Assembly: GCF_000316605.1 (NCBI RefSeq)
Contig: NC_019683.1
Coordinates: forward strand, 4,634,036 to 4,698,035
Reading direction: 5' to 3'
Source: [Leptolyngbya] sp. PCC 7376
Lineage (GTDB): Bacteria > Cyanobacteriota > Cyanobacteriia > Cyanobacteriales > MRBY01
Length of the DNA stretch: 64,000 nt
Part shown: positions 18,000-63,549 of the stretch, piece after piece
Position numbering within the stretch: position 1 is the first letter of the stretch
Layout of the letters: each line of letters starts with the position of its first letter
Position numbers and translations under genes: made by a program
Notes under the pieces: generated by a model
Seen by the model: only the letters and a program-made list of their open reading frames with translations
Told to the model about the DNA's origin: nothing
The model's database searches: none

Positions 18000-20468
18000 T
18001 CATAGCCAAAAATCACTATCTTCTAAAAAATCGATTGGAAAGCTCTCAAAATCGATCGCTTCTTTTTTCTGTAAAACAGCATTATATTGACTGGCGATCG
18101 CCTCGGGAGAGAAATTGTTTTCAAGATATTTTCTTGCAGACTGACCCAAACGTTTTGCTTCTTTAGTGTCCTGACTTAATCCAAGAATATAATCCGCTAA
18201 TCCTTGTGAATCACCATTTTCAAAGCCAGCACCACAATCACCTTCCTCAAGCATATTGTTGAGATAAGTAGATTTTGGACAAATCGCAGCGATGGGACGA
18301 CCACTTGCTAAGTAACCATAAACTTTACTAGGAGCAACCAGACCTTCCATTCCTTCACTAACACTAACGAGAGTTACATCACAAGCAGTCAAGGAATAAG
18401 TTAAATCTTTTTTATCTTGGTAAGGAAGGAAAACAAAATTATTTAAACCATGCTCTTTAATCTTTGCTTTCAAATTCTCTTGCTTTGCACCTTTACCGAT
18501 ACAAACAAATTGAATGGGTTCGTCTTTTAGTTTCAGCGCGGCTTTGAACATTGTGTCAATGTCGTGACAGCGACCCATATTACCAGAATAGAGAACAGTG
18601 AATTTTTCAACTAAATCATGCTTCTGAGCAAACCAATTTTCTTCCTTCTCAATTGGGTAAATCTTTTGAGGATCTGCCCAGCTATGAATAATTGTGATTT
18701 TGTCTTCAACTTCAGGACAGTGAGCAACAATTCTGTCTTTCATATTGCTGCTTAGAACAATAATTTCTTTAGAGTTACGCCATACTTGCTTATTAATCCA
18801 AGTCCAAGCTTTTACGATTGGATTGTCACGACTAATCATTCCAAGTTCAACAGAAATATCTGGGTGAATATCGTAAATCAAGCAGATATAAGGAGTATTG
18901 AAAAAGAAGTTGAGAAGATAGCCGATTACTGGCAGAAAAGGAGGAGCAGTTGTAACAAGTAGAAGATTATATTTTCTGTAGTTAGCTGCAATGTGGAGGA
19001 TTGCTCTGAAAGCAAATAACAAACCACCAAGTAGAGCGCCTCTCAATCTCTTAGAGCTGAACTTAGTGATATTGGAACGGCGTACTGTCACACCGTTTAG
19101 TAATTCTTCTTCTTTAGGAGCGACTTGGTCTTGGTTAGCATAACCAGGTTGACCAGTGAAGACGTCAATGTTTAGACCATTGCGACCGAGGTGCTTGACT
19201 AACTCTTCGATGAGTTGGCCAGTCTTCGCGTAGTCCGGGGGGAAAAATTGAGTGACAACTGAGAGTTTTGTGGAACTGTCAGTAACCACATCTCGTGAAT
19301 GATACTCAGAATTCCTAAAAAGCGAATTCACAAGATTATTAGCAACATTGTTAGTTAGAGTAATACTACCAGCGGAGCTAGCTGAGATTTTTCCAAAATC
19401 AGGAGAAATAAAGTCTTTCCCTTTCACTAGATTTTGTTTGACATTACTAATATTCCGCAATAAAGTAGAAGAGAGTTCCTGAACATTAATGGCTTGGTTA
19501 TAACTTGCAATCATCTCTTTTTCTCTACCTAAAGTAGATAATGCCACCCCTCTATTGTTCCAAGTAACATAATCATTGGGATTAGCCTTGATTGCCTTAT
19601 CATAATTTTCGATTGCCTCTTCTTCTTCGCCTAAAGAAGACAATATAACACCTCGATTATTCCATGCAATATGCGTATTTGGCTTGAGTTTTAAAACATT
19701 ATCATAGCTGTTGAGAGCTTCTTCATACTCTTTCGCGAAACTGTGAAAAAGACCTTTTTTCAGCCATAAATAAGCTTGTTGACCAGAATCTGTAGCTGCT
19801 TTGATCTCATCAACAACTTCTTTTATCACTATCTTCTTTTCTGCTGATTCTAAATCTTTATATTCCTCAAAAATACTCTCTTCATAATTGGCACAATTAT
19901 ACTCACGTTTTATCTGCATTAGAGTAGAATTAAAATGAAAAATATTAGAGCGCCAATCAAAAAAATCTGGTGCACGACGAACAAAATAGTTGATGCCAAA
20001 ATCTGGAAGAAAGAATATTAGTGTAATGGGAAATTGGTCTCGAATTTTTTCACGACTTAAATTGAGGTTTCCAAGAATTAATGGGACTTTTTCCCAGTTT
20101 TTTCCTGCATAACCTTTTGTTTGACTTAAACCAAGCAGATTTATATGCTTTTCTTGTTCATATTCTGATATCGCAATTTCAATTCCTTTGATGAATAAAA
20201 TGTCGAATTTTTGTTCCTCATATTTTTGAACAATTGCTTCATAAAGATTCTTGCTCTCCTTACTTATAGTTAATTGAGATATTTGTTTTTGTAATAAATC
20301 TTTCTCTAGTTTTCGAGTCAATTCCTCTGCGGTTTCTGATGTACAGTTGACAAACTGTAAGTTGAAATCATTTGCTCGCCGAATAGATCGCAATAATGCG
20401 GCATAAGAATCTTGATCTTGAGGTCTAATATCATTATCCCAAATAGAATTATTTGCACTTGAACTCAT
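18000..20468 (-). CDS. fusion: conflict-type N domain, TPR repeats and GT4 glycosyltransferase
   Basis: 822 residues with three parts. Residues 1-225 resemble the N-terminal domain of cyanobacterial proteins encoded beside a P-loop ATPase; the recognisable piece is RRAPDFFDWRSNIF at 164-177, like the APDFWSWR-type motif I recall from that family. Residues 231-330 are three TPR units (IAWNNRGVILSSLGEEEEAI, VTWNNRGVALSTLGREKEMI). After a Ser/Asn-rich linker, 401-805 is a complete GT-B glycosyltransferase of the WcaI/WbuB kind: SVVTQFFPPDYAKTGQLIEE, YDIHPDISVELGMI, FTVLYSGNMGRCHDIDTMFK, and MEGLVAPSKVYGYLASGRPI with the acidic E of the E-x7-E region. It lies 16 bases downstream of the ATPase gene in the same direction. 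The natural expectation is ATPase-controlled activity, but joining of a surface-polysaccharide enzyme to this N domain is odd, and a chance gene fusion is an alternative. Confidence 0.75.
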   Translation of the reverse strand: MSSSANNSIWDNDIRPQDQDSYAALLRSIRRANDFNLQFVNCTSETAEELTRKLEKDLLQKQISQLTISKESKNLYEAIVQKYEEQKFDILFIKGIEIAISEYEQEKHINLLGLSQTKGYAGKNWEKVPLILGNLNLSREKIRDQFPITLIFFLPDFGINYFVRRAPDFFDWRSNIFHFNSTLMQIKREYNCANYEESIFEEYKDLESAEKKIVIKEVVDEIKAATDSGQQAYLWLKKGLFHSFAKEYEEALNSYDNVLKLKPNTHIAWNNRGVILSSLGEEEEAIENYDKAIKANPNDYVTWNNRGVALSTLGREKEMIASYNQAINVQELSSTLLRNISNVKQNLVKGKDFISPDFGKISASSAGSITLTNNVANNLVNSLFRNSEYHSRDVVTDSSTKLSVVTQFFPPDYAKTGQLIEELVKHLGRNGLNIDVFTGQPGYANQDQVAPKEEELLNGVTVRRSNITKFSSKRLRGALLGGLLFAFRAILHIAANYRKYNLLLVTTAPPFLPVIGYLLNFFFNTPYICLIYDIHPDISVELGMISRDNPIVKAWTWINKQVWRNSKEIIVLSSNMKDRIVAHCPEVEDKITIIHSWADPQKIYPIEKEENWFAQKHDLVEKFTVLYSGNMGRCHDIDTMFKAALKLKDEPIQFVCIGKGAKQENLKAKIKEHGLNNFVFLPYQDKKDLTYSLTACDVTLVSVSEGMEGLVAPSKVYGYLASGRPIAAICPKSTYLNNMLEEGDCGAGFENGDSQGLADYILGLSQDTKEAKRLGQSARKYLENNFSPEAIASQYNAVLQKKEAIDFESFPIDFLEDSDFWL

Positions 20469-20484
20469 GATTTACTTCTCTATT

Positions 20485-21822
20485 CTATAATTGTGCTTTT
20501 GCCTGTTTAAATTGTTGAATTTTAAGAATTAACGGATGCACATCGTACCAGACTTGAATTTCATCCTCACTGTCAAATGCAGCATACTGTAATATACATC
20601 GACTAAATAGCAGCCGTCGTTCATTATCATTCCCTTTAATCTGCTTGTCTCTTGCCACCTTTGCTAAAGTCAACCATTCTTCCGAAGAAGTTACTGATCG
20701 ACGATAGGTGTCTCGCGTTTGAGTAATTGCAAATTGGGCGGCTCTTTCTGTAATTGGTAGCTCATCAACATAATCAAACGAAGTTCGTACCAATCTGAGT
20801 AAATCTCTAACATGACCACCACTCATCTGACATAGCCGTGTCAAAATCTCTTCATTTCCAAACACATTGGGTACTAATTCAAACGTTTGAGCTTTTAATT
20901 TGCGATGCACTCGTTTGTTAATAATTTCTCTTAGCCGTTGTAAACCTTCTTGATCTTCGTCTCCATTTAAAGTCTGAATTGCAGTAATTGGCAAAATCGA
21001 AGGTTCTCCATCATACCTCTCCGCTAAGTCATTTGCTCGATTATATGCAATCGAAATTGGCACAGTATAGACTACATCGCAACCAAGATCTTTTAACTGC
21101 TCCGAGCGATCAATGAAAATTTCTTCATGGTTTGTGCGCCCATCATCATCTCGCCGAACTGGCACGATCCGATCCAAATTATCAACTATCACTACAAGTT
21201 GCTTTTTACCATGGGATAAGTTGCTAGTTGCATCTTGGATAAATTCTTTGAGGATATCTAGCAATGTTACTGTATTCGGATCAATCAATTTGCGAATTTT
21301 TTCTCGTTGACTGGGGATCTTACGAATAGCCACTGACATTGTTGTAAACATTAGCGGAATATCCACTTGCCCATTATTGAATTCTACTTCTGCTAGAGCT
21401 AAATCTTTGAGTTCCTGTATCCGACTCTCAACCCACTTTTGAAACTTTGATTGATCGGCATCTAATGTATTGAGTAATTGTCGCACACAAGCTATTAAGA
21501 TATCTGTATATTGTGCATCTTCAGGATCAATATCTCCATCATCAGCGGCAAAATATACGACATAGCAGTCTTGTTCTTCTAGATACTTTCTAAGTCGTAA
21601 TAATTCTGTTGACTTTCCTGTGCCACGATGTCCCGCGTACAGTTGTGCCGTGGGACGACTATTTCGACTACGAATAATTTTTCGTCCAAGATCTCGCTTA
21701 ATATCTGCTCTACCTCGCGAGTCTGACATATCCACATAAATATCTGCATCCTTGATCGCATCGAGAGGATAAAACGGATCAAAAGAATTGTAGATTCTGA
21801 GCAGTAATTCTTCTTCGGACAT
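20485..21822 (-). CDS. P-loop ATPase (AAA/KAP/STAND-like) partner of the TPR fusion
   Basis: 445 residues. Walker A is GHRGTGKST at 64-72 and Walker B VIVDNLDRI at 211-219, with an Arg-rich loop (PVRRDDDGRTNHEE) after it. MSGGHVRDLLRLVRTSF near 335 has the G-G-x-x-R-D/E-L pattern of a sensor-2/lid region as in ORC/Cdc6-like and STAND-type ATPases. No signal peptide, membrane span or DNA-binding domain is seen. The next gene downstream, 16 bases away, carries the paired N domain, so the two are probably translated together and interact. Related pairs are thought to act in conflict or stress signalling; that is family-level inference. No HIP1 site was seen in this gene. Confidence 0.75.
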   Translation of the reverse strand: MSEEELLLRIYNSFDPFYPLDAIKDADIYVDMSDSRGRADIKRDLGRKIIRSRNSRPTAQLYAGHRGTGKSTELLRLRKYLEEQDCYVVYFAADDGDIDPEDAQYTDILIACVRQLLNTLDADQSKFQKWVESRIQELKDLALAEVEFNNGQVDIPLMFTTMSVAIRKIPSQREKIRKLIDPNTVTLLDILKEFIQDATSNLSHGKKQLVVIVDNLDRIVPVRRDDDGRTNHEEIFIDRSEQLKDLGCDVVYTVPISIAYNRANDLAERYDGEPSILPITAIQTLNGDEDQEGLQRLREIINKRVHRKLKAQTFELVPNVFGNEEILTRLCQMSGGHVRDLLRLVRTSFDYVDELPITERAAQFAITQTRDTYRRSVTSSEEWLTLAKVARDKQIKGNDNERRLLFSRCILQYAAFDSEDEIQVWYDVHPLILKIQQFKQAKAQL

Positions 21823-26381: not shown

Positions 26382-29300
26382 ATGACACCTTCAAATCCGT
26401 TCTTTGATGCGTTCATTTCCTACGGGCGAGCTGACAGTAAAGTCTTTGCCACAAAGCTCTATGAACGTTTGAAAGAGGCCGGTTGCCATATTTGGTTTGA
26501 TCAGGAGAATATTCCCCTTGCCGTTGATTTTCAGGAACAGATTAATGACGGCATCGAAAGAACTCACAATTTCCTGTTTATTATTGCGCCTCACTCGGTA
26601 AATTCTCCTTATTGTCTCAAGGAAATCGAGTTGGCGATCGCCCTCAATAAACGGATTATCCCGTTGCTACATGTGGAGGAGATCGATCGAGATCTGTGGA
26701 AAGAGCGCAATCCAGAAGGCACTGACGACGATTGGGATAATTATTGCAAAGCTGGACTCAACAACAGTTTTCAGAACATTCATCCTGTTATTGGCAAAAT
26801 TAACTGGATTTATTTTCGAGAAAAGCTCGATGATTTTGAGCTTGGTTTCGAGGGTCTCATTAGCGCCCTGAATAAACATGGTGATTATGTACAACGCCAT
26901 ACAGAATATTTAGATCTCGCACTGGAATGGTCGCGCAACCAACGAAAAAATCAATATCTGCTCACCGAAGAACTCAAACGCCAAGCAGCTGAATGGCTTA
27001 GATATCAATTTGTAGACGAGCAACCCCCCTGCATTCCGACAGAGCTTCATGGGGAATTTATCTGCGAAAGCATCCGTGCGGCGAACTTCTCCTACACTCA
27101 AACTTGCCTCTGCTATGTGCATAATCTTGAAGATCCAGTGGACGAGCTGGTGCAGTCAATTCGGCGATCGCTGCTGTTATATGGAATTACTGTTGCAGAC
27201 AACAAAATCGAGAACGAACAGGCTCAAAAAGACTTCAATTCTCGCCGTCGTCAAAAAATTGATTTCGCCGATAACTTCATTTATTTTGTCACGCCCGAAT
27301 CTCTGCAAAATGACTACTGTCAACAGCAGTTTAAATACGCTGGCGATCGCCACAAGCGCATTATTTTCCTCATCATCGAACCAACCCCTGGCGAACTGTA
27401 CCCCAGCAATTTAGATGATGTTCAGATCATTGACCTTGTCTCTGGTGATGACCCAAGCAAAAAACAAGCCAGCATAGACAGTCTTCTCAAATTCCTTGAC
27501 CAAGACTTCTACTATCACAACCGCCATAAATATCTCCTCGCTAAGTCCCTGACCTGGCAAGATCAGCGCGAAATTCCGAGCTTACTCTTGCGAGGCTGCA
27601 TATTACAGCAATATGAAGATCTCCAGAAAATTGCAGAGCAACGCAAATATCACCAATTTACTGAGCTCCAAAACAGCTTTCTAGACGCAAGCCTCGCCCA
27701 AGCCACAACCCAAACCCAAACCGATGTGTTTTTAAGCTATGCGCCACAGGATATCGATTTTGCGACAAAGCTCAATAAAACCTTAGAGGAACAAGGGAAA
27801 GTTACTTTTTTTGCACCGTTCCATGCAGATCATGATTCAGAATCTGATGCAGATATTCAGCAGGGGTTAATTGATGCCGCTAATTTTATTTATGTGATTT
27901 CGCCGGATTCGGTCGCCAAAGATGATTGTTTAGCCCAATTACAACGGGCAAAGGGGGTCGGCAAAAGAATTCTCGGTATTCTCTGCCGCACAACTGAGCT
28001 AGAGGCATTTCAGGGAATTTGTGCAGAAGACCAACTCATTGACTTTAGCCGCCATGGTTTAGATTTTCAGGCGGGTCTCAGCCAACTGGTGCGGTTATTA
28101 GATACGGATAAGGCTCATGTCCAGAGCCATACGAAATGGTTTCGGCGAGCGATTGAGTGGGAGCAAAAGAAGAAAACTCGAGATCTTTTATTGCGGGGCA
28201 ATGAGTTGGCGATCGCCCAATATTGGCTCAAGGAATCGGATGAAGGACAGAAGAGCCCCCAGCCGACGAAGCTCCAACGGGAATTTATTCAGAGCAGTGT
28301 TGCCGAAAGCCAAAAAAATATCCGTCGCCAGAAATTTTTATTCACAGCGGTAAGTGTGGGCTTTGTAATTTCTACAATTTTGGGGATTTTTGCCACTCGG
28401 AAATCCTATGAAGCCGCAGTGAGCGAACTGAGCGCGATTATGAATACATCTGCAGCGTTATTCTCCTCAAATAATGAGTTAGATGCGTTTGTTGAGGCAA
28501 TGCATGCTTGGCGAAAATCCAAGGACATTAACCTCAATCGCGGCGATCGCTACCTCAACAAAGATATTTCGAATGTTTTAAGCCAATCCGTCTATCAATT
28601 ATATGAATCCAATCGTCTCAGTGAACATGAAGCTGCTGTTTACGCCGTGGACTATAGTTCATCTGGGGAGTTGCTGGTATCAGGTAGTGCGGATCGACAG
28701 CTGAATCTTTGGTCAGCCAATGGTGAGTTACTTCAAACCCTTGGTGAAGTTGGCCCTATTAGTAAAGGCCATACAGCTAGCGTCTATGCTGTGCAATTTA
28801 GTCCAGATGATCAACTTATTGCCTCAGCGAGTGGCGATCGCTCCATTAAATTGTGGCAACGGACGGAAAATGAACAAGAATACTTGTTTCAAAAAACACT
28901 TTATGGCTGCGTCTTCGAAGCAGAGTTTTGTAATGGGCATGAAGGAAGTATAAATACCATTGCCTTTAGCCCTGATGGTGAATTTTTTGCTTCAGGCAGT
29001 GAAGATAAAACCATTAAACTCTGGAGTAGCGAAGGTGAGTACATAACCACTCTTAGCGAATCAACTCCAGATAACCAACATCAGCGAGCTGTCAATGATA
29101 TTGCCTTTAGTGCTGATGGTCGCCTCCTAATTTCTGTGGGTGATGACCGCAGCATTAAACTTTGGGAGCGAAATCTTCTCAGTAATCAGTTTACGCTCCG
29201 CCAAACCATTGAAGGTTGCCGTAAAACTGAAATCTGCGACGGGCACCAAGACGAAATCAAAGGTGTTGCCATTACGCCAAATGGCGAGCAATTTGTCACA

Positions 29301-30773
29301 GCAAGCGATGATAAAACAGTCAAAATCTGGCGCGTTAAAGATGGCACTTTAGAAAAGACTCTCATTGGCCATACGGATGAAGTTGAGAGTGTAGAAATCG
29401 ATACGATAGACAACGGGAAAGGGCTCAATCTGATTGCCTCTGTCAGCCGCGATAAAACCGTTCGTATTTGGAATACCAAGGGAACAGCAATCCAAACGTT
29501 TCCAGGGCATAGTAGCCGAATTTATGATGTGGTCTTTAAACCCGGTGAGGCGGCGATCGCCACCAGTAGCCGAGACAGAAGTATCAAACTGTGGCGACTC
29601 AATAACGACATTGTGACGCCTTTTTATGGTCATACCAGTCGGGTTTATGCTGTCACCTTTAGCCCTGATGACCAAATGGTGGCGTCTGCAGGGCGTGATC
29701 GCACTATCAAACTTTGGAGTCGCGAAGGTGAACTATTACGTACCTTAACGGGTCATACTGCCGAAATCGAAAAAGTTGTGTTTAGCCCTGATGGTCAACT
29801 CCTTGCTTCTGCGAGTTGGGATGGCACCGTCAAAGTTTGGACAATCAAAGGTGAGCTGCTTACGACCTTCACAGACCATACTCAAGAAGTCTATGGCGTT
29901 GACTTTAGCCCCAATGGCAAAACAGTAGCTTCCTTAAGCGCCGATCAAACCATGAAACTGTGGGATCTCGAAGGCAATATCATCCAAACTATCAATCTAA
30001 ATGAAGGTCGCGTATATGATTTGCAGTTCAGTGATGATGGCGAATTAATTGCCCTGGCCATTGGCAATACAATTCAAACCCTCGAAAAACAGCAGGGAGG
30101 ACGTCGCAGTTACCGTATCGGTAAAAAGATTGGTGGTTGTCAGATCCTCGACCAAAACTGTAATGCCCACCGAGATGATATCGAGGCGATCGCCATTACG
30201 AATGACAACAGCATGCTCGTTTCCGCGAGCCGAGACAGCACCGTCAAATTCTGGGGTCGAGATGGGCATCACCTCTACACATTACGGGGCCATGAGAGCG
30301 AAATTGAAGGCTTAAGCTTAAGCCCTGACAACACAAAACTCGTTTCCGCCAGCCGTGATAGCACCCTTGTTATTTGGGAAAATTTACCCTCATCTGAAGA
30401 TATCTCTCGTTTAGTCCATAACAGCGATATATCCCTTGAGTATTGGGGGGGCAGCGCAAAAAAAGATGAGAAAGATGACATAGACAGCAAAAAACTAAAA
30501 CCAAAAAACACAATCCTGAAAGGCCATCGTGCCGAAGTCTATGCCGCTGACTTTAATGCAGATGGTACGATGCTCATTTCTGCCAGTGCGGATCAGTCGA
30601 TTATTCTGTGGGATTTAGAAGTCGCTCTCAACCTAAATGCACTCATTAATTACGGGTGTAGTTGGTCACAGGACTATCTACAGTACAGTGACGACGTAAC
30701 GAGCAGAGCTGGCAATTTTTCTGATCTCTGTCGAGGTCATACCCTACCAGACAAATCCAAAACCAACTTTTAA
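26382..30773 (+). CDS. triple TIR-domain, membrane-anchored WD40 protein
   Basis: 1463 residues. TIR1 (about 7-100) has FDAFISYGRADSKVFATKLY, GCHIWFDQENI and SPYCLKEIELAIALNK with Glu at 81 in the catalytic position of NAD-cleaving TIR domains. TIR2 (about 240-350; CLCYVHNLEDPVDELVQSIR ... NDYCQQQF) and TIR3 (about 447-540; DVFLSYAPQDIDFATKLNKT ... DDCLAQLQ) have Gln in place of that Glu. After each TIR comes a similar helical segment with H-x-x-x-L ... LLLRG-x-E/I-L. One membrane span is at 651-671. From about 730 to 1440 there are fourteen WD40 units (IKLWS, VKIWR and so on; one degenerate), enough for two seven-bladed propellers. TIRs should be cytoplasmic or exposed with the WD40 part on the other side; topology is unproven. 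The next gene is 31 bases downstream. Confidence 0.88.
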   Translation: MTPSNPFFDAFISYGRADSKVFATKLYERLKEAGCHIWFDQENIPLAVDFQEQINDGIERTHNFLFIIAPHSVNSPYCLKEIELAIALNKRIIPLLHVEEIDRDLWKERNPEGTDDDWDNYCKAGLNNSFQNIHPVIGKINWIYFREKLDDFELGFEGLISALNKHGDYVQRHTEYLDLALEWSRNQRKNQYLLTEELKRQAAEWLRYQFVDEQPPCIPTELHGEFICESIRAANFSYTQTCLCYVHNLEDPVDELVQSIRRSLLLYGITVADNKIENEQAQKDFNSRRRQKIDFADNFIYFVTPESLQNDYCQQQFKYAGDRHKRIIFLIIEPTPGELYPSNLDDVQIIDLVSGDDPSKKQASIDSLLKFLDQDFYYHNRHKYLLAKSLTWQDQREIPSLLLRGCILQQYEDLQKIAEQRKYHQFTELQNSFLDASLAQATTQTQTDVFLSYAPQDIDFATKLNKTLEEQGKVTFFAPFHADHDSESDADIQQGLIDAANFIYVISPDSVAKDDCLAQLQRAKGVGKRILGILCRTTELEAFQGICAEDQLIDFSRHGLDFQAGLSQLVRLLDTDKAHVQSHTKWFRRAIEWEQKKKTRDLLLRGNELAIAQYWLKESDEGQKSPQPTKLQREFIQSSVAESQKNIRRQKFLFTAVSVGFVISTILGIFATRKSYEAAVSELSAIMNTSAALFSSNNELDAFVEAMHAWRKSKDINLNRGDRYLNKDISNVLSQSVYQLYESNRLSEHEAAVYAVDYSSSGELLVSGSADRQLNLWSANGELLQTLGEVGPISKGHTASVYAVQFSPDDQLIASASGDRSIKLWQRTENEQEYLFQKTLYGCVFEAEFCNGHEGSINTIAFSPDGEFFASGSEDKTIKLWSSEGEYITTLSESTPDNQHQRAVNDIAFSADGRLLISVGDDRSIKLWERNLLSNQFTLRQTIEGCRKTEICDGHQDEIKGVAITPNGEQFVTASDDKTVKIWRVKDGTLEKTLIGHTDEVESVEIDTIDNGKGLNLIASVSRDKTVRIWNTKGTAIQTFPGHSSRIYDVVFKPGEAAIATSSRDRSIKLWRLNNDIVTPFYGHTSRVYAVTFSPDDQMVASAGRDRTIKLWSREGELLRTLTGHTAEIEKVVFSPDGQLLASASWDGTVKVWTIKGELLTTFTDHTQEVYGVDFSPNGKTVASLSADQTMKLWDLEGNIIQTINLNEGRVYDLQFSDDGELIALAIGNTIQTLEKQQGGRRSYRIGKKIGGCQILDQNCNAHRDDIEAIAITNDNSMLVSASRDSTVKFWGRDGHHLYTLRGHESEIEGLSLSPDNTKLVSASRDSTLVIWENLPSSEDISRLVHNSDISLEYWGGSAKKDEKDDIDSKKLKPKNTILKGHRAEVYAADFNADGTMLISASADQSIILWDLEVALNLNALINYGCSWSQDYLQYSDDVTSRAGNFSDLCRGHTLPDKSKTNF

Positions 30774-30804
30774 TACCATGCATCTACGGCAACACTTCTA
30801 AGTT

Positions 30805-32676
30805 ATGACCCTGACTAATATCGATACCATTCAGTATCTACGACATGCACCAATCCTCCGCAAATGCTCAGTACAAGATTTATCTCGTCTTATCCCTTTC
30901 ATTGCGGAACGTCAGCTGACACAAAACGAAATTTTATTTAAGGAAGACGATACAGCAGATATGTTGTTCGTCCCTGTCAATGGCAGTTTCAAATTATTGT
31001 CAGGCAAGCGGTGCATCGATGAAGTCTCGACAGGGTTTGTCGGGGAAGAAGCAGCCTTAGATATGGAGAACTATTCATTGACCTGTACCGCTGCCACAGA
31101 TGCGGTTGTTCTTGCCATTGAAAAGAGCGCACTTAATAAGATCAAAGCAACCAATCCTTTCCTCGAAAGGGGTTTATATCGATCCTTTGCGAGTCACTAT
31201 ATTTTTAATAAAGAGCTGCTAGATGAAACAAAATCTGGAATAGATGCGGCTGGCACTAGCAATGTATCTGAGGAAGCTCCCACGCGAGCATTAATAGGTT
31301 GGGTCATGGCGATCGTCCTACCAATTGTTGTGGCGTTGATTACGTCTCACCCTAGCTTTGAAATTTCTGTCAGTATCCAGCAATTTCTGACAATTTTTTC
31401 GGCGGCTTTAGTGCTCTGGACTTTTGATCTGGTGGCTGCTTTTATCCCAGCGATCATTATCATTTTTTCGTTATTAGTCTTAGATGTCGCACCATCTAGT
31501 TTGGTACTGTCAGGTTTCTCTTCCAGTAGCTTTTTCCTTGCCCTAAGTATTTTTGCATTGGGAGCTGTACTGTCGGATTCTGGTCTGACCTATCGCCTTG
31601 TTTTAATCATTCTCAAGGCAGTACCGCAATCGCAGTTTTCCTATAGTTTGACGCTTTTTATGATTGGGTTATTGTTAACACCTGTTTTACCGACAGCGAA
31701 TGGTAGGACACAGTTAGTAACGCCTTTAATGATCGATATGGTGGATGCACTCCAGCTCAAAAAAACAGGCAAAGGTGCAACGCGTTTAGGGTTTGCGGCC
31801 TTTAGCGGCACTACCTTTATGTCTTTTCTTTTCCTCAGTAGTAAACCGATTAATTTTGTTTTAGTCGGTTTATTGCCCTCTCAGGTGCGGGAAAGGTTTA
31901 GTTTGCCCTATTGGACATTGGCAGCGTTAGCAGCGGGGGCGGTGGCGATCGCTGGCTATATTATTGTCTCTTCGCTCCTATTTCGTAACGAAGAACCCAC
32001 AACCCTCTCCCGAGAAAATCTTCAATCTCAACTGAATATCCTTGGCCCAATGAACAACACCGAGTGGATGGCACTGGGAAGTATTTTGGTCTTCCTCACT
32101 GGTGTCTTAACCGCCTCAATCCATGGCGTTGCAATCCCTTGGGTTGGATTACTCGTTTTTTGTTTTTTGTTGCTGGGGAAAGTTCTACTCAAACAGGATA
32201 TCCGCAAAAGTATCGACTGGCCTTTTCTCATTCTCCTAGCCTCCCTCATCGGTTTATCTCGCTCCATTGCCTATATCGGTTTCGATGATTGGATTAGTGA
32301 GTATCTCGGCTGGTTGGGCTCATCAATGCGGAATAATTTTTCTCTGTTTGTACTGCTCTTTTCTGCGGCTATTTTCGGAGCAAGGCTGCTATTGCCGATG
32401 GCTTTAATCGTGCCGTTATTTGGCACCATCTTTATCCCCTTGGCAGAAGGCAGCGGTGTAAATCCTTGGCTCATCGCATTCATTATCTTGATCATCAGCG
32501 ACGGTTGGTTTTTCCCGTACCAATACTCCCCGAAGCTCCTCTTCACGTCTATTACGGATGCCCAAGGATTATTTAATGATCGCCTGCTAACCCAAGGTAA
32601 TATTTTGATGAATATTGTGAGGGTTTTTGCAATCTTTGCCTCCTTTACTTACTGGAAATGGCTGGGGATTTTGTAA
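30805..32676 (+). CDS. cNMP-binding-domain fused to SLC13/DASS-type anion permease
   Basis: 623 residues. Residues about 8-135 form a cyclic-nucleotide-binding fold (YLRHAPILRKCSVQDLSRLI, ILFKEDDTADMLFVPVNGSF, STGFVGEEAALDMENYSLTC). The phosphate cassette keeps G-E but lacks the canonical Arg, so it may bind another ligand or none. From about 155 to the end there are about twelve membrane spans with features of the divalent-anion/sodium symporter family: LLLTPVLPTANGRTQLVTPL and ISDGWFFPYQYSPKLLF. It probably moves a small organic or inorganic anion under control of the N domain. It follows the TIR-WD40 gene by 31 bases in the same direction, suggesting co-transcription. Confidence 0.85.
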   Translation: MTLTNIDTIQYLRHAPILRKCSVQDLSRLIPFIAERQLTQNEILFKEDDTADMLFVPVNGSFKLLSGKRCIDEVSTGFVGEEAALDMENYSLTCTAATDAVVLAIEKSALNKIKATNPFLERGLYRSFASHYIFNKELLDETKSGIDAAGTSNVSEEAPTRALIGWVMAIVLPIVVALITSHPSFEISVSIQQFLTIFSAALVLWTFDLVAAFIPAIIIIFSLLVLDVAPSSLVLSGFSSSSFFLALSIFALGAVLSDSGLTYRLVLIILKAVPQSQFSYSLTLFMIGLLLTPVLPTANGRTQLVTPLMIDMVDALQLKKTGKGATRLGFAAFSGTTFMSFLFLSSKPINFVLVGLLPSQVRERFSLPYWTLAALAAGAVAIAGYIIVSSLLFRNEEPTTLSRENLQSQLNILGPMNNTEWMALGSILVFLTGVLTASIHGVAIPWVGLLVFCFLLLGKVLLKQDIRKSIDWPFLILLASLIGLSRSIAYIGFDDWISEYLGWLGSSMRNNFSLFVLLFSAAIFGARLLLPMALIVPLFGTIFIPLAEGSGVNPWLIAFIILIISDGWFFPYQYSPKLLFTSITDAQGLFNDRLLTQGNILMNIVRVFAIFASFTYWKWLGIL

Positions 32677-32773
32677 GTTTTTTGAGGCAAACTAGTGGTA
32701 ATCATCTGATTTTCACTCACCAAATATTTCTTTAAATTAGTGAATTCTCGTTCTGGATTCGGAAAACCAAGCC

Positions 32774-33961
32774 ATGCTTAACTTCCTGCCCTCCTTATCT
32801 GAAGTGCTATCTACGCCATCCTCAATGTTGTCTAGCTTGTCAATATTGCCTGTCATCGTTCTCGTCGGGGCGATCGCCCCATCACCCACAAGGAAGATTG
32901 GCAACAAGCTCCTACGCATAGCTCGCCATGAGCGGACTTTTGCCACCTTGTTTCTGGTGATTTTATCCATTTTTATCGTGATGCATAGTCTCGATAAACC
33001 AAGATTACTCGTACTTCATAGCTACGAGACGGACTACACCTGGACAACCGAGCAGATCGTTGGCATTGAACGAATTCTCGAACGAAAAAATTCCTATATC
33101 ATCCGCGAGCATTTTCTCGACACCAAGAAAAAACCATACAAAGACTACATGAAGCGCGCCGAACGGGAAGTGCGTGCCATCATTAAACAGTGGAAACCCA
33201 ATGTCATCATTGCCACAGACGATAACGCCCAAATCTTGGCAGGACAGCATTTTGTAGATGATCCACGCATCAAGATTGTGTTTACGGGTGTGCAGGGCGA
33301 TCTCAAAAAATATGGCTATACTTCTGCCAATAACGTCACAGGCATTACTGAAGGTGTGCCACCGGGAGCAATTAAAGAAACCCTTGATCAAATTAACCAA
33401 TCCCTAGGTTCTGACTACCGAAAAATCTATTTCCTGACCCACAGCACCACCCACTCCAAATACGTTGTGGAAAACATGAAAAATTTCGATTGGGGTGACT
33501 ACGAAATGGTCAGCGCGTCGGAATATGAAACATTCAATGATTGGAAATCAGCAGTAAGCAGAGCGGAAAATTCTGCCGATATTCTACTCATCGGTGGCTA
33601 TAAATCATTGCAAGGCACTGAAGACCAGACCGAAGGCGGCAAAGTTGTTCCTTACGAAACAGTGCTTGAGTGGACAGAAGAAAATTCTTCACTTCTCAAA
33701 GTTGGTGCAAGAGGTGTCTATGTTGAAGATGGCGGAATGATTGCCGTGGGTGCGTCGCCTTATGAGCAGGGTGAAGAAGCTGCAAAAATTGCTGTGGCAC
33801 TATTGGATGGCACTAAGAAAATTGAGGATATGCCCGTCCAGGAGAGTAATCAATATTTAGTCTATATGCGGGAAAGTAAGCTTCGGGAGTTTAATCCCAA
33901 TCTGAGGATGCCCAAAATTTATGAGGCTTTTGCCCGAGCAACAAGTCATTATTTCGAATGA
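32774..33961 (+). CDS. membrane-anchored ABC_sub_bind (TrpX-like) periplasmic-binding-fold protein
   Basis: 395 residues. Two hydrophobic stretches lie at about 20-38 and 54-71 (TFATLFLVILSIFIVMHSL), then a type 1 periplasmic-binding fold: LLVLHSYETDYTWTTEQIVG, KPNVIIATDDNAQILAGQHF, IKIVFTGVQGDLKKYGY, NVTGITEGVPPGAIKETLDQ and GMIAVGASPYEQGEEAAKIA. This matches the ABC substrate-binding family PF04392. No permease or ATPase gene of an ABC transporter is adjacent, so a sensory or ligand-presenting role with the permease upstream (97 bases away) is possible, but inferred. Starts at ATG 32774. Confidence 0.8.
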   Translation: MLNFLPSLSEVLSTPSSMLSSLSILPVIVLVGAIAPSPTRKIGNKLLRIARHERTFATLFLVILSIFIVMHSLDKPRLLVLHSYETDYTWTTEQIVGIERILERKNSYIIREHFLDTKKKPYKDYMKRAEREVRAIIKQWKPNVIIATDDNAQILAGQHFVDDPRIKIVFTGVQGDLKKYGYTSANNVTGITEGVPPGAIKETLDQINQSLGSDYRKIYFLTHSTTHSKYVVENMKNFDWGDYEMVSASEYETFNDWKSAVSRAENSADILLIGGYKSLQGTEDQTEGGKVVPYETVLEWTEENSSLLKVGARGVYVEDGGMIAVGASPYEQGEEAAKIAVALLDGTKKIEDMPVQESNQYLVYMRESKLREFNPNLRMPKIYEAFARATSHYFE

Positions 33962-62256: not shown

Positions 62257-63549
62257 ATGTCTGATTCCCTGCCTAATGATACTGTCCTCAGTTTTGGCGA
62301 ATCCCATGATGACTGGGAGGCGATCGCTGGCTGTGAACTATTTCAAGGTGTCCAACCCGTCTTACTGAAAGATCTCTTGCAGAGATGTTCGATCCAATCT
62401 TTCCCCGCAGGATCCACTCTCACTGAGCCAGGACAGGAGAACCATACCCTATATATTTTGCTTGGCGGCCATTTGATGGTGTACCTCGCTGAGACTGAAG
62501 ATGCTGTTTTAAACCCAGAGATGGGCTTTCAAATTCCTGTTGGTGAATGTATCGGCGAAATGTCGATTATCGAAAATAAACCTGTTTCAGCCTATGTTGT
62601 TGCTGCAACAGAATGTCGTTTGTTAAGCATCCCCGAAAGTTTATTTTGGGATGAACTAATGTCTTGGCCAGAGGTGGTCAAAAGTATGTTGACAGGCTTG
62701 TCTAGTCGGATGCGCCGTCTCGATAAAGTGGCGATTAAAACCCTTGAGGAGCGGCTGCGATTTGAGCAGATCGAACGAGATCTCAAAGCTGCTGCGCAAA
62801 TTCAATCCAATATTTTGCCCCAAGAAAAACCCCTATTAGCTCAGTATCATCAGGTTGATGTGGCAGCAAGTATTGAACCTGCACGGGAAGTTGGTGGAGA
62901 CTTTTTCGATACTTTTCCCATTGATGAACATACCGTCGGCTTAGCAATTGGTGATGTCTCGGGTAAAGGGATTCCGGCAGCTCTATTTATGATTCGTGCG
63001 GTCACCATTTTGCGGGCAAGTATTGCGCGGCTGAATATTCAAGATGAAAATCTCGCTTCTATTTTTTCGGCAGTTAATCGTCAATTATGTGAGAGCAATC
63101 CGAATTGTTTGTTTGTAACAATTTTTCTCGGCACTCTAGATGTGCGCACAGGCAAATTGACTTATGTGCATGGCGGCCATAATCGTCCTTTTCTGAAACG
63201 GGTGAACGAAGGTTCTGCTATGATTCCGATTCCTGATGGAATGTTGTTGGGGATTTTTGCGGAGGCAGAATATAAACTGGCGGAATTAACGTTGGGGAAA
63301 GGTGATTTGCTTGTGATGTATACCGATGGAGTTACAGAAGCGCGTGATCGCGATGGGCAATTCTTTATGGAAGAGCGAGTCACAAGTATCTTAGATCAGC
63401 TCCCCGCCACTATTTCATCCACTGATATCGTCAGTGTTCTGGGCAACCGAGTGAAAAATTTTACAGAGCAAATGCCGCAATCGGATGACATCACAATTAT
63501 GACCTTGCGCTATAAGGGGGAGCCGCCAGAAGTTTCAACAAGAGATTAG
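62257..63549 (+). CDS. cNMP-domain and PP2C (SpoIIE/RsbU-type) phosphatase
   Basis: 430 residues. Residues about 25-145 are a cyclic-nucleotide-binding fold (ELFQGVQPVLLKDLLQRCSI, GECIGEMSIIENKPVSAYVV) whose cassette lacks the canonical Arg. A coiled linker (KTLEERLRFEQIERDLKAAA-QIQSNILPQEKP) leads to the SpoIIE/PP2C domain: AREVGGDFFDTFPI, AIGDVSGKGIPAALFM, LVMYTDGVTEARDRDGQFF and QSDDITIMTLRY, which hold the metal-binding Asp residues. It should dephosphorylate an anti-sigma-factor antagonist type protein; no such partner gene is adjacent. Confidence 0.92.
   Translation: MSDSLPNDTVLSFGESHDDWEAIAGCELFQGVQPVLLKDLLQRCSIQSFPAGSTLTEPGQENHTLYILLGGHLMVYLAETEDAVLNPEMGFQIPVGECIGEMSIIENKPVSAYVVAATECRLLSIPESLFWDELMSWPEVVKSMLTGLSSRMRRLDKVAIKTLEERLRFEQIERDLKAAAQIQSNILPQEKPLLAQYHQVDVAASIEPAREVGGDFFDTFPIDEHTVGLAIGDVSGKGIPAALFMIRAVTILRASIARLNIQDENLASIFSAVNRQLCESNPNCLFVTIFLGTLDVRTGKLTYVHGGHNRPFLKRVNEGSAMIPIPDGMLLGIFAEAEYKLAELTLGKGDLLVMYTDGVTEARDRDGQFFMEERVTSILDQLPATISSTDIVSVLGNRVKNFTEQMPQSDDITIMTLRYKGEPPEVSTRD

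Follow-up and report, generated by a model that had tools for sequence, protein, structure and literature searches.

The stretch of DNA analysed here (the window) comprises 64,000 nucleotides of [Leptolyngbya] sp. PCC 7376 (NC_019683.1, positions 4,634,036 to 4,698,035), whose genome is a single contig of 5,125,950 bases, labelled G000 in our comparisons. Three plus-strand genes within it encode a TIR-WD40 protein, a permease and a substrate-binding protein (SBP). The first (26382-30773; 1463 residues) has three TIR domains, a transmembrane segment and WD40 repeats, and is a lineage-specific partner of the other two. The permease (30805-32676; 623 residues), in which a cNMP-binding fold precedes a DASS-type membrane region, and the membrane-anchored SBP (32774-33961; 395 residues) are the core genes of the module described below. 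Gaps of 31 bases (30774-30804) and 97 bases (32677-32773) separate the genes, and neither contains a terminator-like site; all six such sites found lie inside coding sequence, against a mean of 7.9 in shuffled sequence. The genes flanking the trio read by eye as carB (minus strand) and argH (plus strand), and PADLOC matches at the locus are at the domain level only. An earlier reading made from the sequence only had described the same strand, gaps and domains, all of which are borne out by the open reading frames (ORFs) and Pfam.

A conserved permease and binding-protein pair

Pfam assigns to the permease a cNMP_binding domain (PF00027; 45.2 bits, cut-off 27.5) at residues 36-116 (30910-31152) and a Na_sulph_symp region (PF00939; 84.1 bits, cut-off 27) at 31300-32673. 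Na_sulph_symp and CitMHS were listed and DctM was absent when matches up to E = 1 were admitted, and the TIGR00785 score (99.2) falls below the cut-off of 198.6. The phosphate-binding cassette of the cNMP fold is altered (G80-E-E to Y90; 31042-31074) and has no Arg. The alignment of the permease family comprised 20 sequences, L045, L046 and L112 being left out because they are broken or cut, and in all 20 the cassette begins G-[EQ]-E. The position of the cyclic-phosphate-binding Arg was placed by eye against the CRP and PKA cassettes; at this presumed position Tyr is found in 19 sequences and Cys in one, and Arg in none of the 20. L114 alone has an Arg at another place in the stretch, two residues ahead of that position. 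Ordinary cyclic nucleotides are thus unlikely ligands, and canonical gating by cAMP or cGMP was rejected as the default. Trypanosome PKA, where the phosphate-binding Arg has been lost and nucleosides are described as binding in place of cAMP (PMC10959531), is a partial parallel: both folds are Arg-less, and the Glu that PKA has added aligns one position further on.

Invariant positions in the permease alignment number 51, of which 48 follow residue 160. The SNT strings are the substrate and Na+ motifs of dicarboxylate DASS carriers; none occurs in any of the 20 permeases, those of L115 and L116 having PNT at the second SNT place. In the permease tree the window sequence groups with cyanobacteria of genus g110 on a long branch with weak support (85/84), so we claim no transfer history. 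The structure model of the permease was too poor (pLDDT 54.9) and was kept out of the fold search.

The SBP matches ABC_sub_bind (PF04392; 31.4, cut-off 25.9), with no DctP-type family among its matches, and its score against the TrpX equivalog (31.6) is far below the cut-off of 390. Hydropathy marks two hydrophobic segments, at residues 17-35 and 55-73. The second (32936-32992) ends six residues ahead of the first-strand motif, the usual place in the family: the best hydrophobic stretch stops 5-11 residues short of that motif in all 21 of the SBPs (21/21). Since this segment lies so close before it, the binding domain is expected on the outer side of the membrane. The earlier description of the SBP as membrane-tethered and lacking an ABC permease agrees with these features. 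With a model of middling quality (pLDDT 69.7), the best Foldseek matches were CD0873 (6hni, 6hnj), 3lkv and 3lft, the last a complex with L-Trp, at TM-scores of 0.47-0.53 by query length; a sequence profile of the SBP likewise finds 3lkv and 6hni. In a plasmid collection the permease had no match and the SBP had distant ones only (seven records, 26-30% identical).

Outside the window's genus, relatives of the permease are 31-43% identical to it. A scan of named genomes yielded five loci, in Limnothrix RL_2_0, Peptococcaceae, Desulfotomaculaceae, Armatimonadetes and an Oxalobacteraceae metagenome-assembled genome (MAG), the last four being 34-42% identical, and an SBP gene adjoins the permease in all five. 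The Armatimonadetes copy (L064, a 4.2-kb contig of a MAG) resembles those of Peptococcaceae and may be mis-binned. A profile of the five permeases was then used for phylum scans, a full match being at least 534 bits. The genomes were samples that included the seed genomes, and three candidates per genome (four in the scan of 299) were scored, so misses are possible. In the phylum to which the Oxalobacteraceae genome belongs, 15 of 398 genomes gave full matches (one is the seed, and another, G275, is truncated where its contig ends); in that of the Peptococcaceae genome one of 299 did so (the seed itself), and among cyanobacteria four of 339 (G000, G072 and, from another family, G918 and G928). 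In the phylum of the Peptococcaceae genome, 14 other genomes gave DASS matches of 143-229 bits without the cNMP part.

Of the 23 permease loci, 21 have an SBP gene next to the permease gene and on its strand; the remaining two, L112 and L046, run into the end of their contigs. The permease comes first in 18 loci and the SBP in three; in 11 of the 18 a four-base start/stop overlap is available, with a candidate ATG on the permease stop. Control loci with DASS matches lacking the cNMP part had no SBP gene in about 1.5 kb of flank per locus (0/15 and 0/24, 0/39 together); among the 24, L017 has no profile match and L035 only 27 bits, and among the 15, L092 has a separate Crp-like ORF nearby. Near-duplicate loci (L104/L106, L115/L116, L127/L128) mean that these counts are not independent events. 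The permease and the SBP constitute a conserved two-gene module.

The link that had been proposed among all three genes is conserved mainly for this pair; the TIR gene adjoins the module only in the window's genus. No TIR match was found near the module in 20 loci outside that genus (4-20 kb each), and the trio as a widespread system was rejected on this ground.

The TIR-WD40 gene in the window's genus

A search of 195 genomes of the order gave strong permease relatives in three only: G000, G072 and G106 (a MAG, Limnothrix sp. RL_2_0). Full SBP relatives are confined to the same three, with a remnant in G098 and weak matches in G148 and G019. In these three of the six genomes of the genus the TIR-WD40, permease and SBP genes all lie at the carB-argH site, and the TIR protein is 52-75% identical among them. 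The three-gene order was recovered in two other cyanobacteria, G072 and G106, at the same site, which is more than chance, and not beyond the genus. Neither permease nor SBP was found in G029, G053 or G089 of the same genus, where the TIR query gave one weak match in G029 and none in G053 or G089, no inspection of the carB-argH site itself having been made there.

Two of the three permease genes are interrupted. In G072 two contigs each hold a part of the gene, with the SBP gene heading the facing contig. The same 12-base sequence stands, inverted, at both broken ends, an 8-base duplication is present in both flanks, and joining the flanks without the insert gives an uninterrupted permease reading. 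A 73-base end (for example L046:1-73) has 11 copies in G072, seven of them starting at the first base of a contig, and none in G000 or G106. Inverted ends, duplication and multi-copy end together indicate that an insertion sequence sits in the permease gene. In G106 the permease and TIR-WD40 genes have one frame break each, for which an assembly fault in the MAG is possible. All three genomes have an intact SBP ORF, and the TIR ORF of G072 is intact as well.

Pfam finds TIR_2 in three stretches and WD40 in 13 stretches (28617-30620) of the first protein, and hydropathy finds a single hydrophobic segment at residues 652-670 (28335-28391), the predicted transmembrane segment; limits of the TIR domains and WD40 repeats are approximate. 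A Glu is the catalytic residue of TIR NADases. It is kept as Glu81 (26622-26624) by TIR1 (26403-26675) alone, its place being taken by Gln316 (27327-27329) in TIR2 (27057-27575) and by Gln519 (27936-27938) in TIR3 (27702-28181). Among aligned proteins of the TIR-WD40 family the Glu of TIR1 is present in 33 of 33 and has been lost from TIR2 in four of 33 and from TIR3 in five of 32; the double loss occurs only in the three permease-linked proteins and in none of 29 other readable members. Between the window and G072 nonsynonymous changes are few and synonymous sites near saturation in all three genes, so the ratios are only indicative; within the TIR gene nonsynonymous change is 0.10 for TIR1, 0.20 for TIR2 and 0.18 for TIR3, against synonymous values of 0.62-0.76. 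With so little change at nonsynonymous sites, TIR2 and TIR3 appear in the linked protein to be non-catalytic modules that have been retained. The linked protein would thus carry a derived set of one active and two inactive TIR domains, the activity being predicted from sequence.

The source genome has 19 TIR matches in five open frames, with four multi-TIR proteins besides that of the window. Counting the three that have the trio, 21 of 190 genomes of the order contain relatives of the N-terminal half (35-52% identity within the order outside the linked copies). At 30 unlinked TIR-WD40 loci, 25 of them with short flanks, neither an SBP gene nor a full permease was found (0/30 each); the lone match to the permease profile was weak (14.8 bits) and came from a separate cNMP-type ORF. 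Five-TIR paralogs in L122 and L123 each have a further TIR copy of Gln type, one that is not among the three TIRs aligned with the window protein. Near two TIR-WD40 paralogs lie transposase-like ORFs with an identical start sequence (L121:6150-7134 and L122:17990-18973).

Neighbours of the module and interpretation

In genus g110 a dCache-HAMP-class III cyclase gene lies 3' of the SBP gene on the same strand, at a distance of 870 bases (L115) and 851 bases (L116); Pfam was run on the L115 cyclase, and that of L116 belongs to the same cluster. A search of seven other genomes found its best relative in G098, as a truncated gene (62% identical over the C-terminal 254 residues), the next being 44% identical; the best match in the window's genus reaches 162 bits and 37%. 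In G098 the cyclase piece and the SBP remnant stand head to head, their matches meeting at a single breakpoint, and the 20-kb stretch around them contains no permease match. This stretch looks like a rearranged relic of the linked set, in an orientation unlike that of g110. The module- or remnant-linked cyclases (L115:4812-6947, minus; L116:12938-15082, plus; L150:9316-10146, minus) have Asn before the [FY]IGD motif (NNFIGD), where seven of eight compared cyclases have Lys (DKFIGD or DKYIGD) and the eighth Gln. The substrate of these Asn-type cyclases may differ.

Other neighbours vary, and no partner gene is common to all module loci. A dCache-SpoIIE-HATPase protein is encoded beside the module in L113, with a member of the same cluster in L111, and a histidine kinase and response regulator lie near it on the opposite strand in L105. 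Directly after the SBP gene of L114, Peripla_BP_6 is fused to a mechanosensitive-channel (MscS) domain (L114:5374-8211, minus), which looks like a solute-gated channel. Peripla_BP_6 and glutamine-synthetase-family genes occur in L117, a glutamine-synthetase relative also in L118, alkaline phosphatase (PF00245) in L101 and L119, and a phosphoesterase (PF04185) in L104 with clustered relatives in L106/L107. The ligands that these neighbours suggest conflict, so we claim no substrate.

Three further loci were noted by eye. At 62257-63549 (plus) of the window, a cNMP fold appears joined to a SpoIIE-type phosphatase, resembling the module neighbour in L113. At 18000-21822 (minus), a TPR/glycosyltransferase-like protein gene adjoins a P-loop ATPase-like gene, possibly as a two-gene system. 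Near the Peptococcaceae module, three tandem short proteins have the look of Nif11-type leader peptides (L062:13337-15264, minus).

We lean, by a modest degree, towards the view that the pair is a DASS-type permease or transceptor that is coupled to an SBP and has a cytoplasmic switch, TRAP-like and outside TRAP. The anchored SBP would capture a small solute, perhaps amino-acid-like to judge from the nearest solved relatives, and would dock on the DASS-fold permease, which would either move the solute or pass on a 'solute present' state; this working is modelled on TRAP systems, with their similar membrane fold. The cNMP-fold domain would serve as a switch on the cytoplasmic side, probably one that responds to something other than ordinary cAMP or cGMP. 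The TIR-WD40 protein of the window's genus, in which one TIR is potentially active, may be a signal source or a co-regulated sensor, and this is the weakest step. Several observations weigh against the whole: the SNT strings that known DASS dicarboxylate carriers have are missing from the permease, which makes transport itself uncertain; interruption in two of three trio genomes means that the permease is dispensable there; the anchor is below the 1.6 threshold (1.30-1.58) in four of 21 SBPs (L104, L106, L107, L108), and the anchor search gives some best stretch for any sequence; the SBP model is of middling quality; and a PF04392 relative adjoins a PAS kinase on pDVUL01, a sensor setting.

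Some of these points would suit a sensor instead, in which the permease is a transceptor that relays the state of the SBP through the cNMP fold to a cyclase, a SpoIIE-type phosphatase or the TIR protein with little or no transport. Such a sensor would account for the lost SNT strings, for the PAS kinase and for the signalling neighbours in L115/L116, L113/L111 and L105, and SBPs are described as stimulating receptors (PMC9602780). The invariant positions concentrated after residue 160 argue for a conserved transport-like core, and the phosphatase and glutamine-synthetase-family neighbours suit uptake; we regard a pure sensor as unlikely. A narrower doubt, compatible with the transporter reading of the pair, is that the TIR gene alone is a chance neighbour of an unrelated transporter pair at a permissive carB-argH site. 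The TIR family is multi-copy, the pair is missing from three of the six genomes of the genus, and G072 keeps a whole TIR ORF beside an interrupted permease. The 31-base same-strand gap without a terminator-like site, the order kept in three genomes whose TIR proteins have diverged, and the derived TIR pattern that the linked copies have in common all speak against accident, which we consider possible and rather doubtful. In one genus the TIR gene adjoins the module, and its altered TIR set makes a link between them plausible.

The sequence-only reading went further: TIR1 would cleave NAD, and the product would bind the cNMP fold and gate the permease, with the SBP as outside sensor. The order kept at one site, the Glu kept by TIR1 in all aligned proteins and the double loss peculiar to the linked proteins agree with this, and indirect support for a nucleotide-type signal comes from the cyclase downstream of the module in g110 and its relative abutting the SBP remnant in G098. 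The lost Arg, moreover, would leave room for another ligand, as in the nucleoside-binding trypanosome PKA (PMC10959531). The same loss in all 20 folds counts against an ordinary cyclic-nucleotide signal, and the model is further burdened by a TIR link confined to one genus, by a permease interrupted in two of three carriers and by TIR-WD40 relatives that are present in 21 of 190 genomes of the order and, at 30 unlinked loci (25 with short flanks), show neither an SBP gene nor a full permease. As a whole we find it improbable. In a broader version, a non-standard nucleotide-derived signal governs a fourth-family SBP-DASS transporter through the Arg-less cNMP fold, its source being an altered class III cyclase in one cyanobacterial genus and a TIR enzyme in a second; this is a speculation that we would hold quite unlikely as it stands.

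Comparison with known systems

Membership in TRAP, Thoeris or TrpX was rejected, as each has features that are missing here. Thoeris and Pycsar resemble the trio in having a TIR domain or a cNMP-type domain as a possible receiver. Unlike them, the trio has no ThsA (the neighbours of the TIR gene are the permease, the SBP and the carB- and argH-like genes) and no Pycsar cyclase/effector pair. Cyanobacterial multi-TIR/WD40 proteins likewise have three TIRs followed by WD40, whereas the linked copies keep the catalytic Glu in TIR1 alone. If the TIR link is real, it would tie NAD-type signalling to solute transport.

MFS transporters fused to cNMP-binding domains are mentioned in a review (PMC10710835); the module differs in carrier family, SBP partner and Arg-less cassette. 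By Pfam the permease belongs to the transmembrane family of DASS/SLC13 carriers (PF00939, TIGR00785), and departs from them in its TIGR00785 score, its missing SNT strings, its pairing with an SBP and its N-terminal cNMP fold. SBPs of the TrpX and CD0873 type (PF04392) are the nearest solved folds, and PF04392 is matched above cut-off; the module SBP misses the TrpX cut-off, has no adjoining ABC permease and has a short-linked membrane anchor. In the open-access literature, searched by title and abstract with subscription papers mostly outside its scope, neither a cNMP-fold DASS carrier nor an SBP paired with DASS was found.

In outline the module resembles TRAP (DctPQM/SiaPQM), where an SBP is encoded with a secondary-carrier membrane subunit, and the TRAP M subunit is reported to have the DASS/VcINDY fold (PMC9971032). 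The module permease is nonetheless of Na_sulph_symp and not DctM type and bears a cNMP fold; its SBP is a PF04392 protein with an N-terminal anchor and TrpX-like fold matches, not of DctP or TAXI type; and in the window no DctQ-like small-subunit gene was noticed next to the two genes or in the gap that separates them, no DctQ model having been run. A 2018 review counts three families of SBP-dependent transporters, ABC, TRAP and TTT (PMC5812351). The evidence suggests a regulated transporter of an undescribed kind, and the pair would make the origin of SBP dependence on an elevator carrier and the ligand of an Arg-less cNMP fold testable. The conserved SBP/DASS pair would make a fourth SBP-dependent family, built on the fold family of the TRAP membrane subunits and equipped with its own cytoplasmic switch.

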